Origin: Alphaproteobacteria bacterium SO-S41
GTDB lineage: Bacteria > Pseudomonadota > Alphaproteobacteria > Micropepsales > Micropepsaceae
Direction: 5' to 3'
DNA: 64,000 nucleotides
Assembly (NCBI GenBank): GCA_019670725.1
Contig: AP024629.1
Location: 1,612,001-1,676,000, forward strand
Shown here piece after piece: positions 3,568 through 27,305 of the stretch. Both the position numbers and the translations under genes were made by a program. Position 1 is the stretch's first letter. Each line of letters starts with the position of its first letter. The notes beneath the pieces are model-generated. The model saw only the letters and a program-made list of their open reading frames with translations, was not told the DNA's origin and did no database searches.

Positions 3568-4362
3568 GTGACCCAGATTTTCGGCATTCTCAACGTCACC
3601 GCGGATTCGTTTTCCGATGGCGGGCGCTATCTCGATCCCGCTGCGGCGATCGCGCAGGCGCGCGCGCTGGCGGACGGCGGCGCCGACGTGATCGATATTG
3701 GGGCGGCGTCATCCAATCCGGATGCGGCGGCGGTGGGCGCGGAGATGGAGATTGCGCGGCTGAGCGCCGTGGTGCCGGCGCTGCACGAAGCGGGGATTGC
3801 GCTATCGGTCGACAGTTTCGAGCGCGAGGTGCAGGTCTGGGCGCTGGCGCAGGGCGTTCGTTGGCTGAACGATATTCAGGGCTTTCCGGATGCGACGCTG
3901 CACCCGCAGCTCGCGGACAGCGATGCCGGGTTGATCGTCATGCACGCCGTGCAGGGGCGTGGGAAGGCGGCGCGGATCGATGTGCCGCCGGCAGAGATCA
4001 TGGGGCGGATGTTCGCGTTCTTCGATGCGCGGGTCGCGGCGCTTGAGCAGGCGGGTGTGGCGCGGGGGCGGATCGTGCTCGATCCCGGCATGGGGTTTTT
4101 CCTCGGGACCGATCCGGAGACGTCGCTGGAGGCGCTGCGGCGCACTGGCGCTTTGAAGGCGCGCTATGGCCTGCCGGTGCTGATCAGCGTGTCGCGCAAG
4201 TCCTTCATCCGCGCCATCGCGGGCCGCAGCGCACAGGAGGCCGGCGCGGCGACGCTAGCGGCGGAACTGTTCGCGGTGAGCGCGGGGGCGGCGATGATCC
4301 GCACGCATGATCCCCGCGCGCTCAGCGATGCGCTGAAGGTGACGGCGGCGTTGCGGACTTAG
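3568..4362 (+). CDS. folP: Dihydropteroate synthase
   Basis: 264 residues, the usual length. The enzyme joins p-aminobenzoate to 6-hydroxymethyl-7,8-dihydropterin diphosphate in folate synthesis and is the sulfonamide target. Visible family motifs are GILNVTADSFSDGGRY at the N terminus, ADVIDIGAASSNPDA, SVDSFEREV, and the phosphate/pterin-binding region LDPGMGF and LISVSRKSFIRAI. The start is GTG at 3568, directly before TQIFGILNVT. Its stop overlaps the stop of the convergent secreted-protein gene by a few bases. No folK or folB is adjacent. The sulfur-binding region shows GAAS where many homologs have GGES, a normal variation in this family as far as I can tell. Confidence 0.92.
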   Translation: MTQIFGILNVTADSFSDGGRYLDPAAAIAQARALADGGADVIDIGAASSNPDAAAVGAEMEIARLSAVVPALHEAGIALSVDSFEREVQVWALAQGVRWLNDIQGFPDATLHPQLADSDAGLIVMHAVQGRGKAARIDVPPAEIMGRMFAFFDARVAALEQAGVARGRIVLDPGMGFFLGTDPETSLEALRRTGALKARYGLPVLISVSRKSFIRAIAGRSAQEAGAATLAAELFAVSAGAAMIRTHDPRALSDALKVTAALRT

Positions 4363-4961
4363 TCCGCCTTCCACTCCTTGTCGCAGAGGCCGCCTTTGGC
4401 GTCGCTAAGAAGGAAGGAGTCCTGGTCGTCCTTGGGGTCGATCTGTTCGTAGCCCTCGTCGGGTTCGTCATCGGTCTTGGAGGGGTAGGCGACGGTGAAG
4501 CCGGTGGGGTTGTCGATGCGGAACTTCCCGTCCGCCTTCGCCGTCAGCGTGAAGCTGCCGCCATCGCCGTCAATGCCGCAATTGAGGACGTCGGCCTTGG
4601 GACCGGCCTTGCAATAGGCGCTGCCGAAGCCGGTGCGCTTCTCGTTCCTGAAGGTCACGACCATCATGGCGGAGAAAGCGGGGGTGTCGGCGTACTGGTC
4701 CCACATCGGAATTTCCTGGCCCTCGGAGGTCTGGGTGGGCTGGTAGGAGAAGGCGATGGCGGTCACTTTCTGTTTCGGATGCGCAACCATGTGGGCTTTG
4801 TCGTATTCGCGAACGTAGCAATGGGGCTTCGCAGCGTCGAAAAAGCCTATGACCGGCGCGGTTGTACGGGCCGCGGGTTCCGGCAGGGCATCCGCCAGCG
4901 CCGGGGCGCCGCCGAGGGCCAGGCAACCGAGGGTAAGTTTCGCGAAGCTGAGCTTCTTCAT
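4359..4961 (-). CDS. Secreted protein of unknown function
   Basis: 200 residues starting at [18 protein letters not shown], a clear Sec-type signal peptide with predicted cleavage near [11 protein letters not shown]. The mature part is rich in Asp, Lys and Gly, has four cysteines (CYVREY, YCKAG, NCGID, GLCDKEW) that could form two disulfides, and ends in an acidic segment. I recognise no domain. A longer in-frame start upstream exists, but it would run into the glmM coding region and would hide the signal peptide, so 4961 is preferred. It faces glmM divergently across 40 bases and converges on folP. Confidence 0.7.
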
Positions 4962-5001
4962 GCTAGAACGACTCCAATTGGGCGCGACAGATGAGGGTAG
5001 C

Positions 5002-6345
5002 GTGACGCGCAGCTTCTTTGGAACAGACGGCATTCGTGGAACCGCCAATCGCGGCAATATGACCGTCGACGTAGCGGTAAAGGTCGGCCAGGCCGTCGGC
5101 CGGGTGTTCAAGCGGACCGACGGCGTGCACCGCGTGGTGATCGGCAAGGACACGCGCCTGTCGGGCTACATGATCGAGAACGCACTGACGGCGGGCTTCA
5201 CCTCGGTGGGGATGGACGTCTTCCTGTTCGGACCGCTCCCGACGCCGGCCGTGGCGATGCTGACGCGCAGCCTGCGCGCCGATCTTGGCGTGATGATCTC
5301 GGCCTCGCACAATCCCTACCACGACAACGGCATCAAGCTGTTCGGGCCGGACGGCTACAAGCTGTCGGACGCGGTGGAAAAGGAGATCGAGGCGGGGATC
5401 ACCGGCGATCTGACCGACGCATTGGCCGAGCCGACCAAGATCGGACGGGCGAAGCGTATCGACGACAGCCAGGCGCGCTATATCGAATTCGCCAAGCGCA
5501 CCTTCCCGCGCAACCTCCGGCTCGATGGCCTTCGCATCGTCGTCGATTGCGCGAACGGCGCGGCCTACAAGGTGGCGCCGAGCGTGTTCTGGGAACTGGG
5601 CGCCGAGGTCATCTCGATCGGTGTGTCGCCCGATGGCTTCAACATCAACGAGGATTGCGGGTCGACCGCGCCGGAAGCGCTGCAGGCGAAGGTGCGCGAG
5701 GCGCGGGCCGATCTTGGTGTGGCGCTGGACGGCGACGCGGACCGGGTGGTGATCGTCGACGAGAAGGGGCGCGTGGTCGATGGCGACCAGATCCTCGGCC
5801 TCATCGGCAAGCGCTGGGCGGAGCAGGGCCGGCTAAAGGGCGGCGGCCTGGTCGCGACCATCATGTCCAATCTGGGCCTCGAGCGGACGCTGGGTGCGGC
5901 GGGTGTGGAGATGGTACGCGCGGGCGTCGGCGACCGCTATGTTATGGAGCAGATGAAGGCGCGGGGCATGAACCTCGGCGGCGAACAGTCCGGCCATATC
6001 ATCCTCAGCGATTTCTCGACGACGGGCGACGGGCTGATCGCGGCGCTGCAGGTGTGCGCGGCGCTGGTCGAGACCGGTAAGCGGGCGAGCGAGGTATGCC
6101 ACGCCTTCGAGCCGCTGCCGCAGCTTCTGAAGAACGTGCGTTATCACAACGGCTCGCCGCTCGACATTCCGCATGTCAAATCCGAGATCGAGCGGATCGA
6201 GAAGGAACTGGGCGCCAAGGGCCGCGTCGTCATCCGCAAGTCGGGCACCGAGCCGGTGATCCGCGTGATGGCGGAAGGCGATGACGAGAAGCTGGTGAAG
6301 AGCGTGGTCGGGTCGATCGTCTCGGTGATCGAGAAGGCGGCCTGA
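5002..6345 (+). CDS. glmM: Phosphoglucosamine mutase
   Basis: 447 residues, normal for the family. It interconverts glucosamine-6-phosphate and glucosamine-1-phosphate on the path to UDP-GlcNAc for peptidoglycan and LPS. Seen: N-terminal [12 protein letters not shown], the phosphoserine loop [20 protein letters not shown] with the serine at residue 102 (the family position), the Mg-binding DGDADR, the sugar-binding GGEQSGH, and the C-terminal [15 protein letters not shown] phosphate site. The start is GTG 5002, with GAGG eight bases upstream; upstream in-frame ATGs would add a tail the family lacks. thiD follows after two bases. In many bacteria glmM follows ftsH-folP; here folP is near but separated by one reversed gene. 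Confidence 0.95.
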
Positions 6346-6347
6346 TC

Positions 6348-7151
6348 ATGCGCCGTTTGTTGATCGTCGCCGGATCGGATTCCGGCGGCGGCGCGGGTAT
6401 CCAGGCCGACATCAAAACGGCGACCGCCTATGGCGTCTATGCCGCGACCGCGATCACCGCGATCACCGTGCAGGATACGCTGGGCGTGCATGGCGTCCAT
6501 GCGGTGCCCGACGAGACGATCGCGGCGCAGCTGCGCGTGGTGCTGGACGATATCGGCGCGGATGCGGTGAAGACCGGGATGTTGGCGAGCGCAGCGGTGA
6601 TTGCGCTGGTGGCCGCTGGCTTGGAGAAACACGCGCCGGGCGTGCCGCTGGTGGTCGACCCTGTCATGGTCGCCAAAGGCGGGGCGCGATTGATTGACGA
6701 GGGCGCGGTCGCGGCGTTGAAGGATCTGCTGATTCCACGGGCGACGTTGCTGACGCCGAATGCACCGGAGGCGGCGGCGCTGCTGGGCGTCGCGGAATTG
6801 AATTCGGTGGACGACCTGCTGATCGCCGGGCGCGAGCTGAAGGCGATGGGCGCCAGTGCCGTGCTGATGAAGGGCGGGCATATCCAGGGCGAGACCGTCG
6901 CGGACGTGCTGATCAGCGATGACGGCGAGGACGTGTTCTCGCATGCGCGCATCCACACCCAGCATACGCACGGTACGGGCTGCACACTGGCCTCGGCGAT
7001 TGCGTCGGGCCTGGCGCTGGGCTGGACGCTGCGAGATGCGGTGGAGACGGCGCGCGCCTATGTCATAAAGGCGATCGAGACGGCGCCAGGCTTCGGCGAA
7101 GGCCATGGGCCGCTCAATCATATGCACGGGATCGGACGGTCATGGACCTGA
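6348..7151 (+). CDS. thiD: Hydroxymethylpyrimidine / phosphomethylpyrimidine kinase
   Basis: 267 residues. A ribokinase-fold kinase that phosphorylates HMP and then HMP-P in thiamine biosynthesis. Signatures: IVAGSDSGGGAGIQADIKT at the N terminus, VKTGML, VDPVMVAKGG, LTPNAPEAAALLG, LMKGGH and the ATP/anion-hole motif HGTGCTLASAIASG. It starts two bases after glmM and overlaps the next gene by ten bases, so translational coupling is likely. No other thi genes are in the window, so a salvage role is possible. Confidence 0.94.
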   Translation: MRRLLIVAGSDSGGGAGIQADIKTATAYGVYAATAITAITVQDTLGVHGVHAVPDETIAAQLRVVLDDIGADAVKTGMLASAAVIALVAAGLEKHAPGVPLVVDPVMVAKGGARLIDEGAVAALKDLLIPRATLLTPNAPEAAALLGVAELNSVDDLLIAGRELKAMGASAVLMKGGHIQGETVADVLISDDGEDVFSHARIHTQHTHGTGCTLASAIASGLALGWTLRDAVETARAYVIKAIETAPGFGEGHGPLNHMHGIGRSWT

Positions 7152-7966
7152 AGCAGTGGACGATCGACGCGTTCGCGACGCAGACCTTTGAAGGCAATCC
7201 CGCGGCCGTCGTGCCGTTGCTGGAGTGGCTGGATACCGGCCTGATGCAGGCGATCGCCGAGGAGAACAATCTGTCGGAGACGGCGTTCTTCGTGGAAAGC
7301 GCGCCAGGCCGTTATGGCCTGCGCTGGTTCACGCCGCAGATGGAGGTCGATCTCTGCGGCCATGCCACGCTCGCTTCGGCCTTCGTGCTGTTCAGCCATG
7401 TCGCGCCGGCGTTGAACGAGGTGACGTTCGATACGCGCTCGGGGCCGCTGACGGTGGTGCGCGGCGCGGGCGGGTTGCTGGTGATGGATTTCCCGGCGAT
7501 ATCAGCCAGCGTGCCCGTTGATGCGCCGGGGATCGGGCGGCGACTGGCGGAGACGATGGGCTGTCCGGTGCCGGCCGAAGTGTTCGCGGCGCCCGACCTC
7601 ATGGCGGTGTTCGAGAATGCCGACGCGGTGCGGGCGCTGTCGCCCAAGGGCGCGCTGGGACAGTTGCTGAGCGATCTCGGCATGCGCGGGTTGATCGCCA
7701 CGGCGCCGTCGGACGACGGCAAGTATGATTTCGTGTCGCGCTTCTTCGCGCCCAATCACGGCATTCCCGAAGATCCCGTGACGGGATCGGCGCATTGCAA
7801 GCTGGCGCCGTATTGGGCGAAGCGGCTCAGCAAGACGCGGCTGAACGCGCGGCAGATCAGCCCGCGTGGCGGCACGGTGATCTGCGAGCTGGTTGGGGAC
7901 CGCGTGAAACTGTCGGGCACCTGCGTCGCCTTCGCGCAGGGCGTCATCCATTTGCCGGGAGCGTGA
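7142..7966 (+). CDS. PhzF-family isomerase/epimerase
   Basis: 274 residues with the two-lobed PhzF/diaminopimelate-epimerase fold signatures: DAFATQTFEGNPAAVV near the N terminus, the catalytic glutamate in NNLSETAFF (Glu46), the second-lobe-type motif VDLCGHATLAS, and the C-terminal EDPVTGSAHC. Outside phenazine clusters such proteins are usually housekeeping isomerases of unknown substrate, so I do not assign phenazine synthesis. It overlaps the end of thiD and is followed two bases later by map. Confidence 0.88.
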   Translation: MDLKQWTIDAFATQTFEGNPAAVVPLLEWLDTGLMQAIAEENNLSETAFFVESAPGRYGLRWFTPQMEVDLCGHATLASAFVLFSHVAPALNEVTFDTRSGPLTVVRGAGGLLVMDFPAISASVPVDAPGIGRRLAETMGCPVPAEVFAAPDLMAVFENADAVRALSPKGALGQLLSDLGMRGLIATAPSDDGKYDFVSRFFAPNHGIPEDPVTGSAHCKLAPYWAKRLSKTRLNARQISPRGGTVICELVGDRVKLSGTCVAFAQGVIHLPGA

Positions 7967-7967
7967 C

Positions 7968-8717
7968 ATGACGATTTCGAGCGAAGAAGAACTGGCGAAG
8001 CTGCGCGAGATCAGCCGCATCGTCGCCAATACGCTGCGCGACATGCAGGCGGCTATGCGGCCCGGCATGACGACGGGCGAACTGGATGCGATCGGCGCGG
8101 CGATGCTGAAAGCCGCCGGCGCGGAGTCGGCGCCGCAGCTGACCTATGACTTCCCCGGCGCGACCTGCATCAGCGTCAACGAGGAGATCGCGCACGGCAT
8201 CCCCGGCGACCGGGTGATTGCCGAGGGCGACCTCGTGAATATCGACGTGTCCGCCGCGAAGGACGGGTTCTTTGGCGATACCGGCGCGAGCAGCGTGGTG
8301 GGACAGCCGAACGCGATGCAGGAGCGGCTGCTGCGCGACGGCAAGCGGGCGCTGTGGACGGGGATCGGGCAGGTGAAGACCGGCGCGAAGCTGAACGCCA
8401 TCGGCGAGGCGATTGAGAAGTTCGCGAAGAAGAACCGCTATACGCTGGTGCGCAATCTCGCGAGCCACGGGGTGGGGCGCGCGCTGCACGAGGAGCCCGA
8501 GCAGATCCCGACCTGGCACGAGCCGGGCGACCGCCGGGTGCTGCATGAGGGGCTGGTCTTCACGATCGAGCCGTTCCTGTCGATGGGCGCGAACTGGGCG
8601 GCGGAGATGGGCGACGGCTGGACGCTGGTCTCCGAGCCGCGTGCGCCGACGGTGCAGTTCGAGCACACGATGGTGGTGACCAAGCGCGGCGCGATGGTGC
8701 TGACACAGCCCGGCTAG
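7968..8717 (+). CDS. map: Methionine aminopeptidase, type I
   Basis: 249 residues. Removes the N-terminal Met from nascent proteins. All five metal ligands of the pita-bread fold are visible: Asp93 (NIDVSA), Asp104 (FFGDTG), the His in SHGVGRALHEEP, the Glu in FTIEPFL and the Glu in QFEHTMVV. There is no N-terminal zinc-finger extension, as expected of bacterial type I. It ends a four-gene run (glmM, thiD, PhzF-like, map) with gaps of two bases or overlaps, so one transcript is likely. Confidence 0.94.
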   Translation: MTISSEEELAKLREISRIVANTLRDMQAAMRPGMTTGELDAIGAAMLKAAGAESAPQLTYDFPGATCISVNEEIAHGIPGDRVIAEGDLVNIDVSAAKDGFFGDTGASSVVGQPNAMQERLLRDGKRALWTGIGQVKTGAKLNAIGEAIEKFAKKNRYTLVRNLASHGVGRALHEEPEQIPTWHEPGDRRVLHEGLVFTIEPFLSMGANWAAEMGDGWTLVSEPRAPTVQFEHTMVVTKRGAMVLTQPG

Positions 8718-8782
8718 AACGAAAGATTGTTGCGCAGTTCCTGCTTGTCGGGATTCCGGGACAGGCATATACGCGTCGGCGG

Positions 8783-8823
8783 GCCACACCTCCCCAACGG
8801 GGTGCTTTGATCTGGAAGGATCA
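8783..8823 (+). promoter_or_regulatory. Candidate serC leader RNA with hairpin over the ribosome-binding site
   Basis: Two hairpins lie directly before serC. The first has CCCC (8792-8795) pairing GGGG (8799-8802) around AAC, extendable by outer pairs. The second has TGATC (8808-8812) pairing GATCA (8819-8823) around the loop TGGAAG, so the Shine-Dalgarno AAGGA sits in its loop and 3' arm, five bases before ATG 8829. Position and gene match the alphaproteobacterial serC leader motif known from comparative genomics (Rfam serC). That identity is from memory and was not tested with a covariance model. Confidence 0.55.
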
Positions 8824-8828
8824 CAGAG

Positions 8829-9986
8829 ATGACCGCTACACCCGCTCCAGCTGTGCGTCCCGCACGGCCTTTTTTTTCGTCCGGACCCTGTGCCAAGCGG
8901 CCGGGTTGGACCCCTGAAAATCTCAAAGCTGCTGTCCTGGGACGCTCGCACCGCTCGAAGCCGGGCAAGGCGAAGCTGCAGGAAGCGATCAATCGCACGC
9001 GCGCCGTCCTGAGCGTGCCGGCGGATTATCGCATTGGCATCGTGCCCGCGTCGGATACCGGCGCCGTGGAAATGGCGCTGTGGTCGCTGCTGGGGCCTAA
9101 GCCCGTCACGATGATTGCGTGGGAGAGTTTCGGCAAGGACTGGATCACCGATGTGGTGAAGCAGTTGAAGCTGGACGCGAAACAACTGACCGCGCCGTAC
9201 GGCAAGCTGCCCGATCTCGCGAGCGTCGATTTCGCCACCGATGTCGTCTTCACCTGGAACGGCACGACCTCGGGCGTGCGGGTGCCGAATGCGGACTGGA
9301 TCGCGGGGACCCGCGAAGGGCTGACGATCTGCGATGCTACCTCGGCGGCGTTCGCGCAGCGGCTGGACTGGGCGAAGCTCGATGTCGTGACGTTCTCTTG
9401 GCAGAAGGCGCTGGGCGGCGAGGGCGCGCACGGGATGCTGATCCTGTCGCCCCGCGCGGTAGAGCGGCTGGAGAGCTATGTGCCGGCGTGGCCGCTCCCG
9501 AAGATTTTCCGCATGACGAGCAACGGGAAGATCTCGGAAGGCATCTTCAAGGGCGAGACGATCAACACGCCGTCGATGCTGTGCGTTGAGGATTATCTCG
9601 ATGCGCTGGGCTGGGCGGAGAGCATTGGCGGGCTGGATGCGCTGGTCGGGCGGGCGGATGCGAGCCTGCGCGTGATCGAGCGGCATGTGAACCAGTCGGA
9701 CGTGTTCGGCTTCCTGGCTGAGGACGCGGCGTCGCGGTCGAATACCAGCGTGTGCCTCGTCATCAAGGATAAAGACGTCGCGTCGAAATCGGCGGACGAT
9801 CAGGCAGCCTTCGCCAAAAAGGTGGCCGACGTGCTGGAGAAGGAAGGCGTGGCGCTGGACATCGGTGGCTACCGCGATGCGCCGGCGGGCCTGCGTATCT
9901 GGTGCGGCGCGACGGTCGATACGGCCGATATCGAGGCGCTGATGCCGTGGCTCGACTGGGCCGTGGCGAAGGCCAAGGCGTCCTAA
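8829..9986 (+). CDS. serC: Phosphoserine aminotransferase
   Basis: 385 residues. A PLP enzyme converting 3-phosphohydroxypyruvate plus glutamate to phosphoserine in serine synthesis; it can also act in vitamin B6 synthesis. The protein starts with the alphaproteobacterial-type [17 protein letters not shown], carries substrate-binding [10 protein letters not shown], and has the PLP lysine in [14 protein letters not shown] (Lys193). It is followed by serA after 80 bases, forming the usual alphaproteobacterial serC-serA pair. Its translation may be controlled by the upstream leader hairpins. Confidence 0.95.
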
Positions 9987-10008
9987 CCCTTTTTCACTTG
10001 CCCCCTCT

Positions 10009-10048
10009 GCCCGCTTAGCGGGCGGTCTCCCCCCGCAAGCGGGGGGAG
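10009..10048 (+). repeat. Two consecutive GC-rich palindromes between serC and serA
   Basis: GCCCGC (10009-10014) pairs with GCGGGC (10018-10023) around TTA. Three bases on, a perfect inverted repeat of 10-base arms runs 10027-10048 (CTCCCCCCGC and its complement, only AA between). There is no T-tract, so it is not a standard terminator. It may set the serC/serA ratio or be a dispersed intergenic palindrome; a similar GC-rich pair lies before 28408. The serA ribosome site GGACGGAG is just downstream and outside the stems. Confidence 0.7.
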
Positions 10049-10066
10049 CAACGGACGGAGTAATCC

Positions 10067-11644
10067 ATGCCCAAAGTTTTGATTTCCGACGCGCTGTCGC
10101 CCGCTGCCGTGCAGATTTTCAAGGATCGCGGTGTCGAGGTGGATGTGAAGCCCGGCCTGACCAAGGACGAGCTGCTGAAGATCATCGATCAGTATGATGG
10201 CCTCGCGATCCGCTCGAACACCAAGGTGACGGCCGAGGTGTTGAAGGCGGCGACGAATTTGAAGGTCGTCGGGCGAGCCGGGATCGGCGTCGATAATGTC
10301 GATATTCCCGCTGCGACCGCGCGCGGCATCATCGTCATGAACACGCCGTTCGGCAATTCGATCACGACGGCGGAGCATGCGATCGCGCTGATCTTCGCGC
10401 TGGCCCGTGACGTGCCGGCGGCGAATGCCTCGACCCATGCCGGCAAGTGGGAGAAGAACCGCTTCATGGGTGTCGAGCTGTACGGCAAGACGCTGGGCCT
10501 GATCGGCTGCGGCAATATCGGGTCGATCGTGGCGGACCGCGCGCTGGGCCTGAAGATGAAGGTCATCGCGTTCGATCCGTTTCTGAGCGCCGAGCGGGCG
10601 CAGGAGCTGGGCGTCGAAAAGGTCGAGCTGTCGGAGCTGTTGCCGCGCGCGGACTTCATCACCCTGCACACGCCGATGACGCCGCAGACCAAGAACATCC
10701 TGTCGGCGGAAGCGCTGGCGAAGACGAAGCCGGGCGTGCGCATCGTGAATTGCGCGCGCGGCGGGTTGATCGACGAGACCGCGCTGAAGGGCGGGCTCGA
10801 CAGCGGGCATATCGCGGGCGCGGCGCTGGACGTGTTCGAAACCGAGCCGGCGAAGGAGCACATCCTGTTCGGCCACGAGAAGGTCGTGGCGACGCCGCAT
10901 CTGGGCGCCTCGACCAACGAGGCGCAGGAGAATGTGGCGCTGCAGGTGGCTGAGCAGATCAGCGACTACCTGCTGACCGGCGCGGTGACGAATGCGATGA
11001 ACATGCCCTCGATCAGTGCGGCCGATGCGGCGGTGATGAAGCCCTGGATTTCGCTGGCCGAGAAGCTTGGCGCGTTTGCGGGCCAGTTGACCGAGACCAG
11101 CATCGAGCGGGTCGAGATCGTCTATGAGGGTACGGTTGCCAAGCTGAACCTGCGCGCGCTGACGCAGGCGGCGCTGGCCGGGCTGCTGAAGCCCGCGCTG
11201 CCGGACGTCAACATGGTCAACGCGCCGGTCGTCGCGAAGGAACGCGGCATCGTCATCACGGAGTCGCGGCGCGAGCAGCTTGGTACCTACGACGCGCAGA
11301 TCACGGTCAGCGTCACGACGGGCGAGTTCACGCGCGAGGTGACGGGCACGGTCTACGCGAACGGCGTGCCGCGGATCGTGGACGTGAAGGGCATCGTGAT
11401 GGAGGCGGCGTTCGCGCCGCACCTCCTCTACGTCACGAACGAGGACAAGCCGGGCTTCATCGGCAAGCTCGGCACGTTGCTGGGCGATGCGAAGGTGAAC
11501 ATCGCGAACTTCAACCTGGGCCGCGCCGGGGCGGGCAGCGATGCCATCGCGCTGGTCGAGGTGGACGGCGCGGTGCCGGATGCGGTGCTGGCGGCGATCC
11601 GCGCGATCCCGATGGTGAAGCAGGCGAAGGCGCTGGCGTTCTAG
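10067..11644 (+). CDS. serA: D-3-phosphoglycerate dehydrogenase
   Basis: 525 residues, the long bacterial form: catalytic and Rossmann domains, an intervening domain, and a C-terminal ACT domain (starting near HLLYVTNEDKPGFIGKLG) that usually gives serine feedback. First step of serine synthesis from 3-phosphoglycerate. Seen: NAD-binding GLIGCGNIGSIVADRA, the catalytic Arg region NCARGGLIDE, and the His-Glu pair region ATPHLGAST. It ends four bases inside the stop of the convergent GFA gene. Confidence 0.95.
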   Translation: MPKVLISDALSPAAVQIFKDRGVEVDVKPGLTKDELLKIIDQYDGLAIRSNTKVTAEVLKAATNLKVVGRAGIGVDNVDIPAATARGIIVMNTPFGNSITTAEHAIALIFALARDVPAANASTHAGKWEKNRFMGVELYGKTLGLIGCGNIGSIVADRALGLKMKVIAFDPFLSAERAQELGVEKVELSELLPRADFITLHTPMTPQTKNILSAEALAKTKPGVRIVNCARGGLIDETALKGGLDSGHIAGAALDVFETEPAKEHILFGHEKVVATPHLGASTNEAQENVALQVAEQISDYLLTGAVTNAMNMPSISAADAAVMKPWISLAEKLGAFAGQLTETSIERVEIVYEGTVAKLNLRALTQAALAGLLKPALPDVNMVNAPVVAKERGIVITESRREQLGTYDAQITVSVTTGEFTREVTGTVYANGVPRIVDVKGIVMEAAFAPHLLYVTNEDKPGFIGKLGTLLGDAKVNIANFNLGRAGAGSDAIALVEVDGAVPDAVLAAIRAIPMVKQAKALAF

Positions 11645-12045
11645 AGCGCCAGCGGCGTCTCTGCGAAGCGCGGTTTGGAAAGGTCGTCCTCGCACCAGGG
11701 GGCGGCCTCGGACAGCCAGATCGCGCCGGCTGAGCGGAGGCCGGGGTCATCGTCCAGGGTGGCGACGCTGAGCGTGTAGCTGTCCTGACCGTCGCGATGG
11801 GCGATGACGTGGCTGCCGCAGCGTGAGCAGAAGCGGCGGGTTTTCTCGGCACTGGAACGATAGCCGGTGAGGAGCTCCTCGCCGCGCAGCCAGCGCAAGG
11901 CGTCGACCTTGACCCGGGCGTTGGGCTTGGACGCCGCAGCGTGCGTCTTGCGGCAGGTCACGCAGAAGCAGTGGCCGATGGGCGTGGCGAGGTTGTCGAT
12001 CTCATAGGCGACGGCGCCGCAATGGCAGCTTCCCTTGAAGGGCAT
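11641..12045 (-). CDS. GFA/CENP-V-type zinc-binding protein
   Basis: 134 residues starting MPFKGSCHCGAVAYE. The zinc-binding cysteine pattern of the GFA (DUF636) fold is complete: CHCG, HCFCVTCRK, and RFCSRCGSHV. The founding member spontaneously condenses glutathione and formaldehyde, but most homologs have no proved function. The start at 12045 gives the standard N terminus; a longer in-frame extension reaches back across the purA leader and is rejected. It stands alone on this strand between serA and purA. Confidence 0.85.
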   Translation of the reverse strand: MPFKGSCHCGAVAYEIDNLATPIGHCFCVTCRKTHAAASKPNARVKVDALRWLRGEELLTGYRSSAEKTRRFCSRCGSHVIAHRDGQDSYTLSVATLDDDPGLRSAGAIWLSEAAPWCEDDLSKPRFAETPLAL

Positions 12046-12133
12046 GAGTGCTCTCCCCGCGATGTTTTTCTGAAGTGCCACGCGCAAGTGTGCTGGTCGA
12101 GTCCCCGGCGCATCGCTATAAGGCGTCGGAACT

Positions 12134-12166
12134 AGCCCCCGCGGGATCGTTCCGCGGGGGCTTTTT
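12134..12166 (+). terminator. Strong intrinsic-terminator-like hairpin just upstream of purA
   Basis: AGCCCCCGCGG (12134-12144) pairs perfectly with CCGCGGGGGCT (12152-12162); the last T begins a run of five T (12162-12166). It works only in the plus direction and ends 24 bases before the purA start. It could stop readthrough from serA, or act as an attenuator if a promoter lies in 12046-12130, where a TATAAG at 12117-12122 is the only weak candidate I see. Confidence 0.8.
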
Positions 12167-12190
12167 CGTGCGTGAAAGGGAGTAGGCCGG

Positions 12191-13483
<1,293 letters not shown>

Positions 13484-13486
13484 GGC

Positions 13487-16006
<2,520 letters not shown>

Positions 16007-17419: not shown

Positions 17420-17737
17420 ATGGCCTGGCTCTATCTGTTTATCGCGGGACTTCTCGAAATCGGGTGGGCGATCGGCCTGAAATACACCGAGGGCTTTACG
17501 CGGCCCCTGGCCTCGACGCTGACCGTGCTGAGCATGGTGGCGAGCGTCCTCCTGCTGGGGCTGGCGCTGAAGACGCTGCCGGTGGGCACGGGCTATGCGG
17601 TGTGGACGGGCATCGGGACCGTCGGCACGGCGATCCTGGGCATGGCGCTGTTCGCCGAGCCCGCGACCGCGTTGCGGATCGGTTGCATTGGGCTGATCGT
17701 CGCGGGCATTCTGGGCCTCAAATTCCTGTCGCCCTGA
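17420..17737 (+). CDS. sugE: Small multidrug resistance-family guanidinium exporter (Gdx/SugE)
   Basis: 105 residues and four predicted membrane helices, the SMR size. Starts MAWLYLFIAGLLEIGWAIGLKYTEGF, with the essential membrane glutamate (Glu13) in LLEIGWA, and contains the SugE/Gdx-type segment GTGYAVWTGIGTVGTAILG rather than the EmrE pattern. Gdx proteins are dual-topology dimers exchanging guanidinium for protons. ATG 17420 is chosen because the upstream in-frame extension would be the riboswitch itself. Confidence 0.92.
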   Translation: MAWLYLFIAGLLEIGWAIGLKYTEGFTRPLASTLTVLSMVASVLLLGLALKTLPVGTGYAVWTGIGTVGTAILGMALFAEPATALRIGCIGLIVAGILGLKFLSP

Positions 17738-24794: not shown

Positions 24795-27305
24795 TCACTC
24801 CTGCTCGCCCGGGCGTTTCGCTCGGGCGGTTGGTTGCGCCGCGAGTGGGTCGTCGGGCCAGCGGTGTTTGGGGTAGCGGCCTTTCAGGTCTTTCTTCACG
24901 TCGAGATAGGAGCGCGCCCAGAAGCCGGCGAGGTCCTTGGTGACCTGAACCGGGCGGCGGGCGGGCGAGAGGAGATGCAGCGTCACGGGCATGCGGCCGC
25001 GCGCAACGGTGGGGGTCGCGGTCGCGCCGAACATCTCCTGGAGACGGACGGCGAGGACGGGTTCCCCGCTGGTGTAGTCGAGCGGGAGGCGCGAGCCGGT
25101 GGGGACGGTGAGGTGGGTGGGGGTTTCGGCGTCGATTTTTTTTTGGGTTTCCCAGTCGAAACAAGATCTTAGAGCGAAATCGAGGGGGAATCGGGGCAGC
25201 TGCGACGCCCGGGTGACGCCGGTCAGGTGGGGGCCGAGCCAGTCATCCAGGGTGGCAAGCAGGGTGGCGTCGGAGAGGTCGGGGATCGCGCTGTCGGGGC
25301 CGTCGAGGCGGCGCAGGAGGGCGGCGCGGGCCTGGAGTTGACGGAGATCGTCCGTCCACGGAAGATTTTCGAGGCCGAGCTGGCGGATGCCGTCGAGCAT
25401 CGCCGCGGTGGCGGCTTCGGGTGTGGCGTCGAGCTTGCGTTCTTCGAGGATGAGGGCGCCGAGGCGTCTCATGCGGCGGGCGGCAACAGCTTCGGCGCGG
25501 GCGTCCCAGAGGATTTCGTCCCGGGTCTCGATCTGGCCGGCGAAGAGGCGTTCGAGGTCGGCGAGCTTCAAGGGCGCGGCGAGGAAGATGCGGGCGTTCT
25601 CGGCGCGCTGGTCGATGCTGCCGATGGCGAGGAACGCCTCGCCCGCGAGCGCGTCGGTCTCCGGCAGGGAGGCGCCGCGACCGTTGCGCAGGCGGAAGGC
25701 GCCACGCGGGCCGCGGCGTTGGGCGATGCGGTCGGGATAGGCGAGGGCGAGCAGCGGGCCGGCTTCGTCGGCGTCGATACCGCCGCGCGGGATTTTCGTC
25801 TGGCGCGCCCATTGTTTCGCGTTCTCGCGGGCGCGGGCGAGCGCGCCGCGATCGGCCTGCGCGCCGTGCTGGGCGGCGTCACCGGCGAAGACGTGGAGGC
25901 GGGCGCGGAGATCGGCGTCGGGCCGGTCGCGATCGAGGCGCAGGATGTCCCGTTCGGAGATAAGGCCCGCGATGGCGGCGGCGGTCTGGCCGTGGCCGAG
26001 GGTGCCGGCGCGGAGGATCATGTGCGCGAGGCGCGGGTGCATGCCGAGGGCGTTGATGGCGCGGCCGTGTGGGGTGATGCGGCCGGCGGCGTCGAGCGCG
26101 TCGAGGTCGCGGAGGAGATCGAGCGCCTGGGCGTAGGCCGCGACGGGCGGCCGATCGAGCAGGGCATAGGCGGCGGGATTGGCATCGCCCCAGGCCGCGA
26201 GGTCGAGGGCGAGGGGCGCGAGATCGGCATTGGCGATTTCCGGCGGTGCGAAGGCGGGAAGCGCGCGGTGGGATTCCTCGCTCCAGAGACGATAGCAGGT
26301 GCCCGGTGCGACGCGCCCGGCGCGGCCGCGGCGCTGGTCGGCGGAGGCGAGGGCGAGGCGCGTGGTGACGAGGCGCGTCATGCCGGTCGCGGGATCGAAG
26401 CGGGGCTGGCGGGCAAGGCCGCTATCCACGACGACGCGGATGTCGGGAATGGTGAGACTGGTTTCGGCGATCGAGGTCGCGAGGACGATCTTGCGCGTGC
26501 CCGATGGCGCGGGCGCGATGGCGGCGGCCTGGGCCTCGAAGGCGAGGTTGCCGTAGAGCGGGGCGACGATGACGCCGGTCGGAAGCTGAGACTCGCGCAG
26601 GGTGCGTTCGGCGCTGCGGATTTCCGCTTCGCCGGGCAGGAAAGCGAGAATGCCGCCTTCGGTTTCGCGCAGCGCGCGGCGGATGGCGGCGGCGACGGGG
26701 GCGCCGCTATCGCGGGTTTCGGCAGTGGGTGCGTAGATCGTCTCGACCGGGAAGATGCGGCCTTCGGAGCGGATGACCGGCGCGTTGCCGAGCAGCGCGG
26801 CAACGCGGGCGCCGTCGAGCGTCGCGGACATGACGAGAAGGCGGAGGTCCGGGTTCAGCGCGCCTTGGGTTTCCAGCGCGAGGGCGAGGCCGAGATCGGC
26901 GTCGAGGCTGCGCTCGTGGAACTCGTCGAAGATGACGAGGCCGACGCCGTCGAGACCTGGATCATGCTGGAGGCGGCGGGTGAGGAGGGCTTCGGTGAGG
27001 ACCTCGATGCGGGTGCGGGCGGAGACCCTGGCGTCCTGGCGGACGCGGTAGCCGACGGTCTCGCCGGCCGCCTCGCCGAGCATCTCGGCCATGCGGTGCG
27101 CGGCGGCGCGGGCGGCGATGCGGCGGGGTTCCAGCATCAGGATGGTCCTGCCCGCCAGCCACGACTCGTCCTTCAGGGCGAGGGGCACGAGGGTCGTCTT
27201 GCCGGCGCCGGGCGGGGCCTCGAGCACGGCGGCGCGGCCGCCCGCGAGGGCGGATTTCAGCGCGGGAAGCGCCTCGCGGACTGGCAGATCATGCCCTAAC
27301 GTCAT
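24795..27305 (-). CDS. hrpB: ATP-dependent helicase HrpB
   Basis: 836 residues. A DEAH/RHA-type helicase: Walker A APPGAGKTTLVPLAL near residue 35, MLEPRRIAARAAA, the box II motif DEFHERSLDADLGLAL, MSATLDG, then helicase C with ATSIAETSLTIPDIRVVVDSG and QRRGRAGRVAPG, and the C-terminal HrpB domain. The II motif is DEFH rather than DEAH, as usual for HrpB. The cellular role is poorly known. It is divergent from secF across 76 bases. Confidence 0.92.
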   Translation of the reverse strand: MTLGHDLPVREALPALKSALAGGRAAVLEAPPGAGKTTLVPLALKDESWLAGRTILMLEPRRIAARAAAHRMAEMLGEAAGETVGYRVRQDARVSARTRIEVLTEALLTRRLQHDPGLDGVGLVIFDEFHERSLDADLGLALALETQGALNPDLRLLVMSATLDGARVAALLGNAPVIRSEGRIFPVETIYAPTAETRDSGAPVAAAIRRALRETEGGILAFLPGEAEIRSAERTLRESQLPTGVIVAPLYGNLAFEAQAAAIAPAPSGTRKIVLATSIAETSLTIPDIRVVVDSGLARQPRFDPATGMTRLVTTRLALASADQRRGRAGRVAPGTCYRLWSEESHRALPAFAPPEIANADLAPLALDLAAWGDANPAAYALLDRPPVAAYAQALDLLRDLDALDAAGRITPHGRAINALGMHPRLAHMILRAGTLGHGQTAAAIAGLISERDILRLDRDRPDADLRARLHVFAGDAAQHGAQADRGALARARENAKQWARQTKIPRGGIDADEAGPLLALAYPDRIAQRRGPRGAFRLRNGRGASLPETDALAGEAFLAIGSIDQRAENARIFLAAPLKLADLERLFAGQIETRDEILWDARAEAVAARRMRRLGALILEERKLDATPEAATAAMLDGIRQLGLENLPWTDDLRQLQARAALLRRLDGPDSAIPDLSDATLLATLDDWLGPHLTGVTRASQLPRFPLDFALRSCFDWETQKKIDAETPTHLTVPTGSRLPLDYTSGEPVLAVRLQEMFGATATPTVARGRMPVTLHLLSPARRPVQVTKDLAGFWARSYLDVKKDLKGRYPKHRWPDDPLAAQPTARAKRPGEQE

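Follow-up and report, generated by a model that had tools for sequence, protein, structure and literature searches.

A serC leader RNA and a putative terminator hairpin inside the serC reading frame: a candidate switch of translation and transcription in Alphaproteobacteria

In pyrBI-type attenuation of E. coli, a ribosome close behind RNA polymerase stops a terminator from forming, and a separate leader peptide is involved. Intrinsic terminators also occur in the 5′ UTRs and ORFs of E. coli genes; for instance, a 3′ end in ispU has a stem of 6 bp followed by eight U, according to passages of PMC7815308. The system closest to the locus described here is the serC motif RNA (RF00517; Corbino et al. 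2005). As set out in passages of PMC1273637, this RNA has the same two hairpins as the present leader, with the ribosome site and a GNRA loop in the second, and the same setting of a serC-serA operon in Alphaproteobacteria; the promoter just upstream of the motif has a candidate counterpart here. Seven compounds were tested as ligands, and none bound an RNA with its ends at −46 and +11 relative to the start codon; the ligand-binding passage of PMC1273637 concerns the tumefaciens RNA. The motif was still listed as an orphan in 2020 in the relevant passage of PMC7266159, which also credits a 2018 revision (Greenlee et al.) with adding conserved sequence and structure to it. That both sources, in these passages, leave the motif an orphan agrees with an earlier note on the DNA studied here, in which its ligand was called unsettled.

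The window (the whole stretch of 64,000 nucleotides that was analyzed) carries one more member of this known family directly upstream of serC (Table 1). The cmscan match covers the full model (positions 1–52) with an E value of 1.5e-10. The earlier note had placed a serC leader at 8783–8828, and the Rfam search it called for confirms the family and the end of that span, while the start proves six bases late. Its description of the anatomy holds as well: AAGGA is split between the P2 loop (two bases) and the P2 3′ arm (three bases), five bases separate the end of P2 from the ATG, and P1 precedes P2 just upstream. The same is true of the proposed serC-serA context, with both genes matching NCBIfam models over cut-off. 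Absent from that note were the promoter-proximal 5′ end and a third hairpin, followed by a run of eight T (T8), inside the serC ORF.

Table 1. Features of the serC-serA locus in the window
Feature	Position	Strand	Basis
Candidate −35 hexamer TTGTCG	8745–8750	+	Sequence; 17-base spacer to −10
Candidate −10 hexamer TATACG	8768–8773	+	Sequence
serC leader RF00517	8777–8828	+	cmscan, 59.3 bits (gathering score, 35 bits)
Invariant GGG	8781–8783	+	GGG in 131/131 distinct leaders
Hairpin P1, 6 pairs, hexaloop CCCAAC	8787–8804 (stem 8787–8792/8799–8804)	+	Rfam match, fold, covariation
Hairpin P2, 6 pairs, GGAA (GNRA) loop 8814–8817	8808–8823 (stem 8808–8813/8818–8823)	+	Rfam match, fold, covariation
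AAGGA, ribosome binding site	8816–8820	+	Sequence
serC, phosphoserine transaminase, 385 aa	8829–9986	+	NF002841 (681 bits) and TIGR01365 (666 bits), both over cut-off
Hairpin P3 inside serC, loop TCC	8850–8868 (stem 8850–8857/8861–8868)	+	Terminator scan; fold
T8 tract after P3	8870–8877	+	Codons 14–16 (CCT TTT TTT) plus T of TCG
serA, phosphoglycerate dehydrogenase, 525 aa	10067–11644	+	TIGR01327 (689 bits), over cut-off

By its position, serA probably lies in the same operon as serC, and it follows serC on the same strand in 80/80 class loci whose sequence reaches 400 nt or more beyond serC. Between the two genes (9998–10055, + strand) are two adjoining GC-rich palindromes, CCCGCTTAGCGGGCG and CCCCCCGCAAGCGGGGGG; they may be a repeated element or act as an intercistronic stabilizer. 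Further downstream, a strong hairpin of 13 pairs followed by TTTTCG (12134–12162, + strand) lies 29 bases upstream of purA (12191); it is on the terminator-scan list, and is a candidate terminator before purA or another attenuator. The window also contains a Guanidine-II riboswitch (RF01068; 17356–17406, + strand; 38.6 bits, cut-off 32) directly before an ORF for an SMR exporter (start near 17420), which is a familiar pairing. The exporter matches Pfam PF00893 over cut-off, and its best NCBIfam model is SugE (121.5 bits, just below the cut-off of 126).

The candidate promoter of the window, TTGTCG-17-TATACG, sits at the family’s usual distance from the leader, and transcription is expected to start at about 8779–8780, as judged from the usual 6–7 base spacing. 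A stricter sigma-70 scan of positions 4000–14000 listed no promoter. TTGAC starts 31 or 32 bases upstream of the leader in 163/195 relatives, with the window (TTGTC) among the exceptions, and since the motif lies at this distance, transcription should start at the leader’s first bases. A start at the first bases of the leader was likewise inferred by Corbino et al. in the corresponding passage of PMC1273637.

The comparison drew on a sample of 385 genomes of the class and on 96 genomes of the window’s order, the latter comprising one family and seven genera. Matches to RF00517 at an E value of 0.01 or better were found in 117 of the class genomes (111 over cut-off) and in 84/96 genomes of the order. 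Nearly all class matches (115/117) are serC leaders, 113 being recognized by the N-terminal FSSG motif and two (L091 and L113) by eye; these two loci, missed by the FSSG search, are included in leader counts and excluded from ORF counts. The remaining two, L116 and L117, score below cut-off; their sequences are not those of serC leaders, and they were excluded. One locus, L265, overlaps the range of the contig of L120 and is not an independent case. Seven loci scored as leaderless by the fast search show leader-like sequence by pattern; among them, L211 reaches 41.3 bits, L213 and L251 fall just below the cut-off, and L241 scores 19.7 bits. One genome (G436) has two different serC leaders with T8 (L178 and L193); its listed contamination is 6%, and perhaps two organisms are represented. 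In the window’s own genome, a second RF00517 site (18.7 bits, E 0.19) is far below cut-off and was taken as chance. A search of the same genome for P1-like patterns was uninformative, with 82 matches versus 118 for the reversed pattern, spacing that was off, and the window copy missed.

Both leader stems covary; the earlier note had named missing covariance among relatives as something that would refute its reading. Among 131 distinct leaders from 195 loci, 99.5% of P1 cells are standard pairs, versus 40–57% in slid registers, and 182 cells are changed on both sides, against a shuffle mean of 47 and with no shuffle of 500 reaching this number. For P2, scored in the 128 leaders that contain a CUGNRAG anchor, both sides are changed in 191 cells, against a shuffle mean of 78 (0/500 as high). 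The folding energy of the single window leader is no better than that of dinucleotide shuffles (z −0.14); support for P1 and P2 beyond chance is thus comparative, and does not come from folding energy. CU-GNRA-G is present in P2 of 111/115 class leaders, and the tetraloop occurs in eight GNRA versions among the distinct leaders.

Other positions hardly vary. GGG (leader positions 5–7) and the CCC of the P1 loop (17–19) are present in 131/131 distinct leaders, and 8781–8783 could pair with 8793–8795 to form a short pseudoknot; the zero variation allows no covariation test of this pairing, and the search model also favors these letters. Leader positions 10 and 29 are A-C in 127 of the 131, G-U in two, A-G in one and G-C in one, which is suggestive of a kept wobble, with too few cases for a claim. 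A different pattern is seen in four class leaders below cut-off (L113, L114, L115 and L118), which keep GGG and P1 with CCCAAC and have a changed or lost P2. L241 resembles them, with GGG and P1 kept and P2 degenerate or different, and all five have G rather than A at leader position 10. These leaders give the impression that sensing lies in P1 and that P2 can be exchanged.

The third hairpin of the window, P3, has 8 pairs, six of them G-C, and is followed by one C, T8 and then CGTCCGG. This is the form of an intrinsic terminator, i.e., a GC-rich stem with a U tract directly after it. The region 8843–8879 folds at −12.6 kcal/mol (z −3.1), and P3–T8 is among 10 sites of a terminator scan of 10 kb, where shuffles gave 5.0 (sd 2.3). 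Runs of seven or more T occur only twice on the + strand of the window, as T8 at 8870 and as T9 at 25136, and no A run of that length occurs on this strand. The P3–T8 stretch uses rare codons: in six neighboring genes of the window, Phe is written 6 times as TTT and 61 times as TTC, and CCT is 1/102 Pro codons.

Such an element is nearly universal among the leader-bearing serC genes of the window’s order. A single terminator rule was used throughout: a stem with 5 or more pairs and a score of 14 or more, and an 8-base stretch with 5 or more T that lies no further than 2 bases from the stem. Expectations come from synonymous resampling, in which the protein stays unchanged and its codons are redrawn from those used in the remainder of the gene. 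The rule identifies a terminator-like element in 78/80 full-length, leader-bearing serC genes, with 10.9 expected, and in only 4/1360 windows elsewhere in the same genes. T8 itself is present in 69/80 of the full-length genes and in 73/84 order loci with a readable N-terminus. For departure from usual codon usage, codons 13, 14, 12, 15 and 16 rank 1, 2, 3, 5 and 8 of 237 columns; for example, the Phe codons at the T8 site are TTT in 69/69 and 77/80, whereas Phe codons elsewhere in these genes number 144 TTT and 654 TTC. Kinship among the genes makes all such counts non-independent. Within the T8 set, the differences in P3 are compatible with G-U pairing, apart from a few terminal pairs that are broken, so the pairing is kept, though no double change is there to prove it. 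In 64 distinct sequences, a 9-pair stem frame begins 17–32 nt, and T8 ends 46–61 nt, after the A of the ATG.

The leader and T8 also tend to be missing together. Of the 12 order genomes with no leader match, three hold a complete serC, with no RF00517 there even at an E value of 5, and T8 is missing in all three, the longest T runs being 5, 2 and 3. Of these genes, L200 alone passes the terminator rule, with its hairpin kept and a run of five T; L201 and L202 do not. The three sit among T8 genes in the SerC tree, which forces at least two changes; L202 is on a long branch.

Traces of P3 extend beyond the order into the class. There, 17/107 leader-bearing genes pass the terminator rule (1.74 expected), compared with 3/1884 windows at other places in those genes, and 1/40 leaderless class genes passes (0.73 expected; Fisher P 0.026 against the leader-bearing genes). 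Of 60 loci fetched as leaderless, these 40 were left once 13 without a placeable N-terminus and seven with leader-like sequence had been set aside. A T run following P3 is 5 at most outside the window’s order, and U8 is confined to that one order. With the stem alone scored in the 39 nt before FSS, with or without a T run, a hairpin is found in 52/109 leader-bearing class genes (16.8 expected; mean z 1.15) and in 3/40 leaderless ones (5.8 expected; mean z −0.28), a difference with a Fisher P of 2e-6 when kinship is ignored. The same test finds stems in 79/80 genes of the window’s order, with 32.9 expected.

The 52 class hairpins represent 37 different stems in 26/46 families. At a common place (−27 to −11), L006 has CCGGAC/GTCCGG and L011 of the same family CCGGAG/CTCCGG, with the usual Arg codon becoming Ser; in another family, L053 has CCGGAC/GTCCGG at this place and L058 CCGGCC/GGCCGG. 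In each of these two pairs of loci, both sides of the stem differ and pairing is kept. Other class-wide signals are weaker. In a named, mostly rhizobial set of 79 loci, the stem test is passed by 71 (28.6 expected), yet by 50 internal control windows as well, and no more than 11/79 are individually significant; the count is inflated by composition, and the set therefore adds little. Folding energy at the ORF start is likewise weak across the class (mean z −0.71, versus −0.16 to −0.57 in eight control windows). Finally, the 3′ end of P3 outside the order is at −10 or −11 in 19/52 cases, i.e., often at least 10 bases from a T run. Since class P3 is mostly not beside a T run, it must act otherwise, or by another route, in those genes.

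Taken together, the locus is probably a translation-initiation switch to which this lineage adds an intrinsic terminator within the ORF, firing when no ribosome follows RNA polymerase. The basis for this reading is synonymous-site conservation and association with the leader, from which we infer that P3–U8 would terminate and that ribosomes would prevent termination. Transcription of the serC-serA mRNA would start at the leader’s first bases, and P1 with the 5′ GGG would be the likely sensing part. P2 hides the ribosome site in the anatomy observed, and its formation would lower serC translation. A second gate would be provided by the GC-rich P3, about 20–50 bases into the serC ORF and directly before U8, as an intrinsic terminator. 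RNA polymerase needs a second or two to reach T8. If P2 blocked initiation, there would be no ribosome behind RNA polymerase, P3 would form, and transcription would stop after roughly 100 nt; a ribosome entering in time would cover and melt P3, and the polymerase would continue into serC and serA. One decision at the ribosome site would have both a translational and a transcriptional outcome, and transcription of serC-serA would be spared. Several results weigh against this reading: L200 passes the terminator rule with no leader, P3 of the T8 set shows no double change, P3 is absent from the minimum-energy structure of 20/64 distinct full leaders, the energy signal across the class is weak, and U8 is limited to one order.

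Alternatively, the leader could be an ordinary translational switch, with P3 acting in translation or mRNA stability (as in ribosome pausing or a shielding of the 5′ end), while T8 would be a by-product or have some other use. The distance of at least 10 bases that often separates P3 from a T run outside the order makes no classical terminator, and P3 across the class needs another use. As a by-product, however, T8 would be expected to drift to TTC, whereas in the order it is precisely the codons writing T8 immediately behind the stem that are the least usual, and order genes without the leader lack T8. This account is rather unlikely, albeit one that deserves real weight. Far less credit is due to the notion that the hairpin and T8 are forced by the protein repeat R-P-x-R-P-F-F-S-S, which was already disfavored and is scarcely tenable. 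It is true that RPxRP is encoded by self-complementary, CGGCCG-like stretches, and that resampling alone yields 10.9/80, but 78/80 were observed, and the usual codons would be TTC, CCG and GCC/GCG. In addition, the residue before FSS is Phe only in the 69 T8 genes, with other residues elsewhere, and the leaderless L202 writes Phe-Phe as TTC TTC.

It is also conceivable, if improbable, that the serC promoter yields a free-standing regulatory RNA of about 100 nt which acts in trans and has P3–U8 as its 3′ end. A promoter, a structured body and a terminator would fit such an RNA, and ORF-internal and 5′-derived small RNAs are known in E. coli (passages of PMC7815308). Against it, what is conserved in the leader is its stems and the ribosome site, and long single-stranded stretches of conserved sequence are missing; a trans-acting RNA would, moreover, not exclude attenuation. 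The terminator-backed switch is retained as the preferred reading.

A more doubtful extension of it treats P3 as a third component that belongs to the orphan serC RNA and was left out of the published ligand tests. The 5′ GGG(CC) would then have two partners. Pairing with CCC in the P1 loop would give the pseudoknot, a bound or closed state in which P3 is free and transcription stops; pairing with GGCC(U) at the P3 foot would give an open state, with P3 broken and transcription continuing. In predicted folds of the 64 distinct full leaders, P3 is absent from the minimum-energy structure of 20, and 5′ GGGCC pairs with the foot of P3 instead; forcing P3 costs 0.3 kcal/mol on average and 3.2 at most in the distinct T8 sequences. 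This second pairing needs C at leader position 8, which is C in 69/69 T8 genes versus 2/11 other genes of the order, and the C in T8 genes may reflect one or a few events on the tree. As a speculation, the 5′ GGGCC/P3-foot pairing might be an antiterminator that competes with the pseudoknot.

No report of a terminator or hairpin inside serC was found in the open-licence PMC literature. The leader itself is already known, and the new part may be the ORF-embedded terminator, some of which may be described in the 2018 paper: the revision by Greenlee et al., as summarized in a passage of PMC7266159, may overlap with the ORF hairpin. The probing RNA of 2005, given as −46 to +11 in the passage of PMC1273637, could not contain a hairpin at the place of P3. 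The motif has been without a ligand since 2005, and if the working RNA extends into the ORF, constructs ending at +11 cannot show it. To our knowledge, such attenuators have been little studied in Alphaproteobacteria. If the reading is true, a terminator in the regulated gene’s own codons, with synonymous sites kept, would be a clear natural switch from translation to transcription through ribosome-polymerase coupling.

Compared with the intrinsic terminators of E. coli 5′ UTRs and ORFs, as given in passages of PMC7815308, the element proposed here would share the premature stop early in the transcript, and it differs in its overlap with the codons of the regulated gene, in synonymous-site conservation across an order, and in its link to one named leader family. 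With respect to RF00517, the model ends before the ORF, and P3 and T8 inside serC are features outside it. Finally, a ribosome-prevented terminator would be held in common with pyrBI, a likeness that is one of geometry only at the present locus, whereas in place of a separate leader peptide the ORF here would be serC itself, with ribosome entry set by the serC leader.
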